Shown here: positions 10,216-12,408 of the stretch, in pieces
Numbering within the stretch: the stretch's first letter is position 1
Layout of the letters: every line of letters begins with the position of its first letter
Assembly: GCA_030426845.1 (NCBI GenBank)
Contig: JAUHXR010000050.1
Span: 1-37,500, forward strand
Length of the DNA: 37,500 bases
Origin: Polyangia bacterium
Lineage (GTDB): Bacteria > Myxococcota_A > Polyangia > Polyangiales > Sandaracinaceae
Direction of reading: 5' to 3'
The notes under the pieces: generated by a model
Told to the model about the DNA's origin: nothing
The model's input: only the letters and a program-made list of their open reading frames with translations
Databases searched by the model: none
Made by a program: the position numbers and the translations under genes

Positions 10216-11922
10216 CTATCGCCAGCTCTCTGGATCCTGCCGGCTCAGAATCTGACGGTACGCGCGGCCTTGCGCGCTGGAGCCCCACCGCTCCACGAAG
10301 GTCCTCATGTGGCGGGCGGCGGCGTCGCTGCTGCCCTGGGCCCGGTAGGACTCGATGAGCAATCCCAGCTCCGACTGAGATCGGGCGTGCCCCTCCAGGA
10401 TGCGGATCGCGCACTGGCTGTCGCCGCGCGTGAGGCACTCGCGGGCCTGCGCTTCGAGGCTCCCCTGCGAGGGGGAGCCCTCGCCCGCGAAGGTGATGGG
10501 CACCGTGACGGTCTGCGGGCTCTCCGGCGGCCTGAAGCGCCAGCTCCGCGCCGCCCGCTCAAGGCAATCGCGCACCTCGGCCGGCGCGGTGCCCGTGGCG
10601 GACGCGTCCGAGACCTGGCCGTCGGCCTCGACTCGCATCTGGAGCGTCGCGCGCGACGCCGGGACGGGCGCCGCACAGTCCCGCGCGACCAGCTCCAGGA
10701 TGCGGGCGGGGGTCGGCGGCTCGAGTTGGGGTCCCGTGTACGGCGTCCGCCAGGAGGGCGCGGCGTTCGTGGTGTTCGACGGCGAGTTGCTCGGTGACGC
10801 GGTGTCACGGGGCCGGTCGGTCTCGCCCTCGTGCGACTCGTCATCGGGCGTGGCCTCCTCCGAGGTCGGCGACTGGAACAGGTAGGAGAGCGTCGTCGCG
10901 TCGCCGCGGATCGGCATGAAGTGAAAGGTCGCGAAGCCCCGCTCGAGACACACCCGCAGGTCGTCGGGCAGCGTCCCCCCCACCGGTCTCGCCATCCCGT
11001 CCGGGCCCGGCTCGGTCTGAGGCTCGACGAGGGCTTCGCTCACCCGTCCGCTCGGCTCGATCGTGAGCTCCGCGCGGAGCTGGAGCGGAGCCGGCGCGGG
11101 GTGGCGCCGCCAGCACGGCTCCAGCCGGGCCCGCGATAGGTCGATCCAGCGCTTGGTCCACTCCAGGTCGCGCTGCTCGCGCGGTTCGCCCGCCCCCGCG
11201 TCGGCATCGGCGAGCACTCCGTCCGGCCCTCCCGCGGGCCGCGGGGCCGCGCTCACCAGCTCCCCCTCGGGGGTGAGCATCGGCGCGTCCTCGGCCCGGT
11301 TGAACCACCACGCGGTCAGGCCGATCGCGGCGATGAGGGCGGCCAGCGTGGTCGCGACCGCGGCGAGGCGGCGGCTCACCGTCGGCCGCGACACCGCGAG
11401 GCGCTCGGCGATCTCGTCCTGGGTGAAGCCGGCGACCTTGAGCGCGATCACCGCGCGCTCCTCCCGGTCCGAGCCCGCCTTGTGCATCAGCTCGCTCGCG
11501 AGCGAGGCGTCGAACGGCTCGGAGGGCCGCGCCGCGTGCAGCGCCTCCGCCTCCGTCGTCGCCGGCGGGATCGCGCCCGCGAGGAGCTGCCGCCGCCGGC
11601 GTCGCTTGCGCCGCAGCTCGGCCACGTGGCGGCTCAGGCGCGTCTTCAGGTAGGCGCGGAGCGTGGCCTGGGCGGATCCCTGGCGAAGCTCGTCGAGGTA
11701 GCGCGGCAGCCACGACTCGAACGCGAGCACGGCGAAGTCCCCGACGAGGTCGTCCGCCTCGATCACGTCCGCCGCGCGCGGCGCGACCTCGCGGGCGATC
11801 TCGGCGATCGCGGGCAAGAGCTCCTCCCAGCGGCGCTCGTCGAGCGCGTCGAGCCACGCGAGCAGCTCGCCGGACGCGCGGGTCCCGGGCACGGCGCGGA
11901 GCGCCTCTTCGATCGATCTCAT
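10216..11922 (-). CDS. ECF sigma-like protein fused to a transmembrane helix and periplasmic AgmX-like domains
   Basis: The 568-residue product starts at ATG 11922 with GGTGGAG 8 nt upstream. Residues 56-110 resemble sigma region 2 (EADDLVGDFAVLAFESW, LRAYLKTRLSRHVAELRRK). Residues 150-187 resemble sigma region 4, a helix-turn-helix (SDREERAVIALKVAGFTQDE, IAERLAVSRPTVSRRL). A hydrophobic helix at 188-207 ending in AWWFNR starts directly after the recognition helix. The C-terminal 360 residues, presumed periplasmic, hold two AgmX/TonB-C-like modules (about 250-350 and 415-490, each with paired Cys) and a TPR-like tail. Such a protein could be a membrane-tethered sigma factor or one-component sensor. 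Region 2 is divergent, so RNA polymerase binding is unproven. It is divergent from the DAG-repeat gene. Confidence 0.85.
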   Translation of the reverse strand: MRSIEEALRAVPGTRASGELLAWLDALDERRWEELLPAIAEIAREVAPRAADVIEADDLVGDFAVLAFESWLPRYLDELRQGSAQATLRAYLKTRLSRHVAELRRKRRRRRQLLAGAIPPATTEAEALHAARPSEPFDASLASELMHKAGSDREERAVIALKVAGFTQDEIAERLAVSRPTVSRRLAAVATTLAALIAAIGLTAWWFNRAEDAPMLTPEGELVSAAPRPAGGPDGVLADADAGAGEPREQRDLEWTKRWIDLSRARLEPCWRRHPAPAPLQLRAELTIEPSGRVSEALVEPQTEPGPDGMARPVGGTLPDDLRVCLERGFATFHFMPIRGDATTLSYLFQSPTSEEATPDDESHEGETDRPRDTASPSNSPSNTTNAAPSWRTPYTGPQLEPPTPARILELVARDCAAPVPASRATLQMRVEADGQVSDASATGTAPAEVRDCLERAARSWRFRPPESPQTVTVPITFAGEGSPSQGSLEAQARECLTRGDSQCAIRILEGHARSQSELGLLIESYRAQGSSDAAARHMRTFVERWGSSAQGRAYRQILSRQDPESWR

Positions 11923-11978
11923 CGTCGCCTCCACCCACCCTACACGGGACGAGGTCGCCGGGGCGTTCACCGCGGCGG

Positions 11979-12006
11979 TTGACACCGCGCATGCCCCTCG
12001 CATCCT
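11979..12006 (+). promoter_or_regulatory. Possible promoter for the DAG-repeat gene
   Basis: TTGACA at 11979-11984 and CATCCT at 12001-12006 are separated by 16 bp. The expected transcription start near 12013 would make the GTG at 12013 leaderless and give the ATG at 12028 a 15-nt leader. Confidence 0.35.
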
Positions 12007-12012
12007 GGGGGG

Positions 12013-12408
12013 GTGGGCCTCCCCGGAATGCGCGCGGCGCTGATCGCGCTCGCGGCGATCTTCGCCCTGCTCCAGACCGACGACGGCTGCGGCGCCGTCA
12101 CGGACCCTGAGAAGGGCGAGGGCGAGGCCTGCACCCGCACGAGCGAGTGCCGCTTTCCCCTGGAGTGCCGCGGGGGGGTGTGCCGTAGCTCGAGCGAGCC
12201 GTTCGACGCCGGCCCGGGGATGGACGCGGGGCGGCGCGACGCGGGGGACGAGGACGCGGGAGCGCAGGACGCGGACGTGATGGACGCCGACCTCGCGGAC
12301 GGGGACGTGCCCGAGGCGGGCGTTGACGCGGGCGACGCGGACGCGGGGGACGCTGGCGATTCCGACGCCGGCGATTCCGACGCCGGCGAGACCGACGCGG
12401 GCGCCTAG
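12013..12408 (+). CDS. Small secreted Cys-containing protein with Asp-Ala-Gly repeat tail
   Basis: The 131-residue frame opens at GTG 12013; ATG 12028 is an alternative start that gives a cleaner signal sequence (MRAALIALAAIFALLQ). A short Cys-rich module follows (GCGAV, EACTRTSECRFPLECRGGVC), resembling the CxxxSEC-ECxxGVC motif of many myxobacterial secreted proteins. The C-terminal 75 residues are DAG/DAGD repeats, very acidic and certainly disordered. There is no clear lipobox. It is divergent from the ECF-like membrane protein and could be co-regulated with it, but no function is assigned. Confidence 0.65.
   Translation: MGLPGMRAALIALAAIFALLQTDDGCGAVTDPEKGEGEACTRTSECRFPLECRGGVCRSSSEPFDAGPGMDAGRRDAGDEDAGAQDADVMDADLADGDVPEAGVDAGDADAGDAGDSDAGDSDAGETDAGA

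Follow-up and report, generated by a model that had tools for sequence, protein, structure and literature searches.

Fusion of a sigma factor to a membrane helix is a known design. IutY of Pseudomonas putida (ECF243) is a proven hybrid of sigma factor, transmembrane segment and periplasmic region, and is released by two-step proteolysis through Prc and RseP (PMC5411451). Tethered sigma factors have also been predicted in groups ECF48, ECF52 and ECF53 (PMC8999054), with release by proteolysis proposed for ECF52 (PMC5826349; review PMC8999054). IutY has a FecR-type periplasmic anti-sigma domain and is encoded beside iutA, the gene of an outer-membrane siderophore receptor. The proteins of groups ECF52, ECF53 and ECF48 of Actinobacteria (e.g., SCO4117) have a zinc-finger anti-sigma domain beside the membrane helix, and ECF52 proteins have a proline-rich outer part that includes a carbohydrate-binding module.

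A gene of this kind is found in a Polyangia bacterium of the Sandaracinaceae, within the first 37,500 nucleotides of contig JAUHXR010000050.1 (GCA_030426845.1), the stretch of DNA analysed here and called the window. Its ORF has 568 codons and high GC3. Computation finds in its product a sigma2 and sigma4 fold, a membrane helix joined to it without a linker, and outer modules with paired cysteines, as follows.

10216–11922, minus strand: tethered ECF-type sigma factor gene, protein P0001 (568 aa; ORF exactly from 11922 to 10216)
11572–11841, minus strand: sigma2 domain, residues 28–117 (model pLDDT mostly 82–95; PDB 2o7g, SigC sigma2)
11362–11478, minus strand: sigma4 helix-turn-helix, residues 149–187 (Pfam/NCBIfam; PDB 3vfz, SigD sigma4)
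11302–11367, minus strand: probable transmembrane helix, residues 186–207, continuous with the sigma4 recognition helix (hydropathy; model helix 179–212)
11179–11301, minus strand: disordered juxtamembrane linker, residues 208–248 (pLDDT below 50 at 208–250)
10852–11178, minus strand: first AgmX/TonB-C-like domain, residues 249–357, Cys270/Cys325 (model; Cys census)
10489–10710, minus strand: second AgmX/TonB-C-like domain, residues 405–478, Cys416/Cys453 (NF033768; model; TonB-CTD fold matches)
10237–10458, minus strand: Cys-paired TPR-like outer module, residues 489–562, Cys496/Cys504 (fold search; module comparison; Cys census)

As in IutY, a cytosolic ECF sigma factor, a single membrane helix and a periplasmic region share one chain, here as read from computation. 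Unlike in IutY, the outer part is AgmX/TonB-C-like and TPR-like; the Pfam scan of the protein gave no FecR match, and no TonB-dependent receptor gene was found among the neighbours. The protein also resembles ECF52, ECF53 and ECF48 in the fusion of a sigma factor to a membrane helix and an extracytoplasmic extension, but it differs from them in having neither a zinc-finger anti-sigma domain nor a linker: no such domain follows sigma4, there being no cysteine before the membrane and no residues at the junction. Given the proven case of IutY (PMC5411451) and the predicted ones of ECF48/52/53 (PMC8999054), the original prediction overstated the case in regarding the fusion as out of the ordinary in kind. 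Tethering of an ECF sigma factor is known; what appears to be new is the lack of an anti-sigma domain, the linker-free junction, the AgmX/TPR head and the occurrence in a Sandaracinaceae lineage.

Sigma domains and the membrane junction

The protein has the domain content of ECF (group 4) sigma factors, that is, sigma2 and sigma4 without sigma3, and it passes one curated sigma-family cut-off, that of PF07638 (Sigma70_ECF; 25.4 bits against 21.1, residues 29–191). In the Pfam scan HTH_23 is likewise above its cut-off. Sigma70_r4_2 scores 24.2 against a cut-off of 25.7 in the protein scan and 27.3 bits, above the cut-off, in the genome scan, and TIGR02937 falls one bit short (42.0 against 42.9, E = 7e-11). 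At E ≤ 0.01, Sigma70_ECF is found in five of the six family members and Sigma70_r4_2 in all six (6/6); sigma-profile scores are weak for a paralogue in the same genome (contig C222) and for a homologue in genome G066.

A full-length AlphaFold2 model, built from six sequences, has sigma2 helices at residues 15–117 (confident, pLDDT 82–94) and sigma4 helices at 136–187 (about 61–78), confidence being moderate (about 60–80) for both sigma4 and the membrane helix. The fold search with the full model was swamped by TPR matches, and the sigma part was therefore folded and searched separately (pTM 0.60). With this N-terminal model the top 23 Foldseek matches are all sigma factors, each at an E no better than 0.014 and with a high rmsd overall, which presumably reflects the free relative placement of sigma2 and sigma4. 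Taken one by one in VIA-align, sigma2 aligns with the sigma2 of SigC (PDB 2o7g; Z 7.3, 3.3 Å, 85 residues) and sigma4 with the sigma4 of SigD (PDB 3vfz; Z 6.4, 2.5 Å, 61 residues); a Z of 6–7 is middling for helical folds, and the weight lies on sigma factors filling nearly every row. A PDB sequence search gave weak matches only, mostly HTHs, and a PADLOC match was discarded because it covers the HTH alone. The region 2-like and region 4-like helices noticed originally thus belong to a genuine two-domain sigma fold, as indicated by PF07638, HTH_23, the model, Foldseek and VIA-align, with TIGR02937 just below threshold; the fold occupies the N-terminal part of the model, residues 50–187 included.

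The protein has one strong hydrophobic segment (Kyte-Doolittle 19-residue mean of 2.12 at residues 186–204, against 1.13 for the next-highest window). Recognition helix and hydrophobic segment form a single unbroken helix in the model (179–212), with no linker residues between them. This junction is kept in four homologues, and the outer part is variable. In each of the four tethered homologues, the 19 positions of the membrane segment include 0–1 charged residues, and its identity among them is only 24–33%; hydrophobicity, not sequence, is conserved. Identity is 38–44% in sigma2, as would be expected if RNA polymerase binding is in use, and 44–68% in sigma4, where the HTH core PTVSRR is invariant among tethered members. 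Among the other ECF-type (sigma4-bearing) proteins of the genome, the 30 that score best all lack a hydrophobic segment right behind sigma4. Arginines precede the segment (PTVSRR) and N-R-A-E-D follows it, which fits an N-in orientation.

In the published structure of sigmaE with DNA, the recognition helix reportedly contacts the −35 element at about R171, S172, F175 and R176. In an alignment with sigmaE, these positions fall at S183, R184, A187 and A188 of the tethered protein. They lie where the hydrophobic segment begins, on and within its first turn, so that in the bilayer base reading would be blocked and tethering alone would inhibit. The reading that we favour, with fair though limited confidence, is that of a membrane-bound, self-receiving ECF-type sigma factor, predicted to be inhibited by the membrane and released by intramembrane proteolysis. 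With the helix inserted from about residue 186, the DNA-reading face of sigma4 would be held against the membrane, leaving the −35 element unusable, and the membrane would take the role of the anti-sigma factor. The AgmX/TonB-C-like and TPR-like modules would sense a signal in the envelope and thereby make the flexible linker (208–248) accessible to a site-1 protease. Next, the membrane helix would be cut by a site-2 enzyme of the RseP/M50 type, and the freed, active sigma2–sigma4 fragment would activate the gene that encodes it, perhaps together with a small further regulon. The genome encodes seven homologues of M50 site-2 proteases, which are weak support for proteolytic release because such proteases are present in 14 of 14 control genomes.

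The good conservation of the HTH (sigma4 identity of 44–68% in tethered homologues) would also suit a ToxR/CadC-like one-component regulator that acts while membrane-bound, its outer modules altering the dimer state and its tethered sigma4 binding DNA there, whether or not RNA polymerase takes part. We hold this to be unlikely. In ToxR/CadC-like proteins a linker separates the DNA-binding domain from the membrane, whereas in this protein the recognition helix continues as the membrane helix, which should block access to the major groove; moreover, sigma2 is conserved too and would be superfluous in a pure DNA binder.

Distribution and history of the locus

The unit of sigma factor and membrane helix was sought in 56 related genomes and then in 317 genomes of the class, with recall limited by the scoring of only 8 to 24 candidates in each genome. 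It is present in 4 of the 317: the source genome (G000), G005, G008 and G066, the last from a different family of the same order. The source genome carries two such units, the window gene and the paralogue on C222. In 377 genomes drawn evenly from across the phylum, the search brought up no further unit. Hence, the fusion, whose conservation in Polyangia the original prediction had left to be checked, does recur there, but it is narrowly distributed and rare even in its own order. A contig collection searched with the protein alone gave no relatives; searched with an alignment, it gave one real relative (Sandaracinaceae MED-G138, SHBB01000036.1, the same contig as in G008) and two short HTH-only matches. 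The plasmids and viral contigs searched contained no relatives.

Some of these relatives have contexts of their own. The paralogue (G000:C222, L008, 4134–6679) has as operon partner a gene for a secreted PEGA-domain protein with an obvious signal peptide and the same Cys-paired TPR-like module; the partner's stop codon overlaps the start of the paralogue (ATGA), and its product is a candidate ligand or co-sensor. In G066 (L055, 3980–5524), genes for a canonical ECF sigma factor and a zinc-finger anti-sigma factor lie upstream of the tethered one, with a TerB-like ORF between. A soluble relative of the sigma part in G055 (L042, 6477–7124) stops where the membrane helix would start, and is possibly the ancestral form.

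In the window, no anti-sigma gene adjoins the tethered sigma gene, in agreement with the original prediction: the neighbours encode SPFH/zinc-ribbon, DAG-repeat, PEGA Ser/Thr kinase, CAP and VWA proteins. Gene order in G005 and G008 matches that of the window (SPFH, sigma in reverse, DAG-repeat, PEGA kinase, CAP). In a tree built from the SPFH and kinase sequences, genome G003 is the sister of the source genome (support 91); it has the SPFH, DAG and kinase genes but lacks the sigma gene, which is also absent from G001, G006 and G007, where the DAG gene directly follows SPFH. The simplest history is a single insertion of the sigma gene before the split of G000 and G005, followed by a loss in G003.

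Relative to its orthologue, the sigma part has diverged fast (47% identity, versus 79% for the SPFH neighbour). This, the absence of the gene from the sister genome and the sub-threshold TIGR02937 score could indicate a decayed or non-initiating sigma-like domain. The protein would then serve as a receptor or scaffold in the membrane, its DNA-binding part being either a remnant or a repressor or decoy. Such decay seems improbable to us, since five homologous genes keep the sigma2–sigma4 frame intact, PF07638 is above its cut-off and PTVSRR is invariant in the tethered members.

The DAG-repeat gene, proposed originally as the natural target, and the two promoter elements lie next to the start of the sigma gene.

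12013–12408, plus strand: neighbouring divergent gene of a DAG-repeat secreted protein
11979–12006, plus strand: promoter of the DAG-repeat gene, housekeeping-like, TTGAC-N17-CATCCT (register unchanged in G005, G008 and the sigma-less G003)
11939–11970, minus strand: element GTGAAC-N18-CGTGTAGG, resembling an ECF promoter and directed towards the sigma gene (conserved in G005/G008)

The two genes are divergent, with 90 bp between them, and the pair is retained in G005 and G008. However, the DAG gene is older than the sigma gene or outlives it, as it adjoins SPFH without any sigma gene in G003, G001, G006 and G007; its promoter is the same in G003; and the ECF-like element points the opposite way. 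Because gene and promoter persist without the sigma gene, the DAG gene is regarded as independent of it, and control by the tethered sigma factor as very unlikely. The −10 of the DAG promoter sits 7–9 bases upstream of the GTG start, in the same register in G000, G005, G008 and G003, and this spacing (window 11979–12015) in four genomes suggests a leaderless transcript.

The element facing the sigma gene, GTGAAC-N18-CGTGTnAG, is common to G000 and G005/G008 although most intervening bases differ. Within the 9.4 Mb genome the pattern is matched exactly once, by the sigma gene's own element, and its reversed control has 0 matches. In 2000 trials, shuffled pairs equalled its similarity 7 to 20 times, in a comparison of two independent sequences only; a self-activating ECF promoter is possible, the evidence being suggestive only. 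A sharing of the element by the paralogue or by G066 was not confirmed, the C222 gene being operonic and the resemblance in G066 loose.

Outer modules and their exchange

Behind the linker, the model has two TonB-C-like alpha/beta domains (249–357 and 405–478) with a disordered stretch between them. The second resembles the C-terminal domains of AgmX/PglI (NF033768) and TonB in both sequence and fold, the first in fold. The NF033768 match covers residues 422–478 (34 bits, E = 2.4e-8), and a fold search of the region 405–478 gives TonB-CTD matches. Unlike in AgmX/PglI, this copy is below the curated cut-off (40 bits) and is carried on a sigma factor. The two AgmX/TonB-C-like periplasmic modules of the original prediction both appear in the model and are of periplasmic type, but a third module, at residues 489–562, had been overlooked. 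It is helical in the model (489–561) and TPR-like by fold, TPR folds filling its match list (Z about 8.5–10.4), and has no clear Pfam family: TPR_14 is non-significant in this protein and reaches E = 0.0038 in one family member. The outer parts differ among relatives, with two AgmX-like modules and one TPR-like in the window gene, one of each in G005 and G008, two TPR-like in the C222 paralogue, and a disordered-looking tail alone in G066.

The sigma part contains no cysteine, and the six of the protein all follow the membrane helix, as pairs 270/325, 416/453 and 496/504. The G005, G008 and C222 homologues have four each, paired inside modules, and the G066 homologue, which has no outer modules, has none. 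The same TPR-like module ends FHA-FHA-membrane proteins and transmembrane kinases, where it lies behind a membrane helix. An extracytoplasmic location of residues 208–568 is thus indicated independently by the cysteine pairing and by the position of this module, which elsewhere lies beyond a membrane helix or a signal peptide. A single-pass, N-in/C-out topology is probable, the hydrophobic segment being a true membrane segment; first placed at 188–207, it is now put at 186–207 from hydropathy and the model. The earlier idea that sensing and DNA binding are fused in one chain is likewise upheld as a prediction, from the sigma fold, the membrane helix and the periplasmic-type modules. That the protein is instead cytoplasmic, with this helix folded onto its sigma domains as an intramolecular inhibitor, is highly improbable: insertion into a membrane is beyond what AlphaFold2 can prove and helix confidence is moderate, but paired cysteines occur only after the segment and AgmX/TonB-C-type domains also lie there, the same outer module elsewhere follows membrane helices or a signal peptide, and the soluble G055 relative just ends at that point.

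In Polyangiales, FHA-FHA-membrane proteins and transmembrane Ser/Thr kinases combine the same C-terminal outer module with a different cytoplasmic output. Residues 489–562 are 80% identical to the module of an FHA membrane protein of the same genome (76% at the DNA level over 222 bp), whereas identity with the orthologous sigma protein is only about 44%, over 48 residues. In the module tree, in which several deep supports are low, the module of the tethered sigma factor clusters with those of the FHA protein and of C222, which belong to the same genome (support 73), and the G003 kinase module with the G003 FHA module (support 95). The C-terminal head therefore seems, from these comparisons, to have been copied or exchanged among proteins of different output (sigma, FHA, kinase). 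The FHA-protein copy lies at G000:C178 8646–8906, and related copies are found in G003:C110 and G003:C149.

Implications for envelope signalling

A further, more tentative proposal is that the membrane itself is the anti-sigma factor, with the −35-reading helix forming the first turns of the anchor and no protein domain acting as inhibitor, and that the exchangeable, disulfide-stapled head, carried also by FHA proteins and kinases of the same genome, may pass one envelope signal to several outputs. If the reading of a membrane-inhibited, proteolytically released sigma factor is true, envelope signalling would here be minimal, one protein standing in for a sigma factor, its anti-sigma factor and a sensor, and inhibition would need no protein–protein interface. 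It would also be an independent origin of the IutY-type design, in a genome that encodes about 60 proteins of the sigma4 type. The outer module is common to sigma factors, kinases and FHA proteins, and its ligand would illuminate several pathways together.
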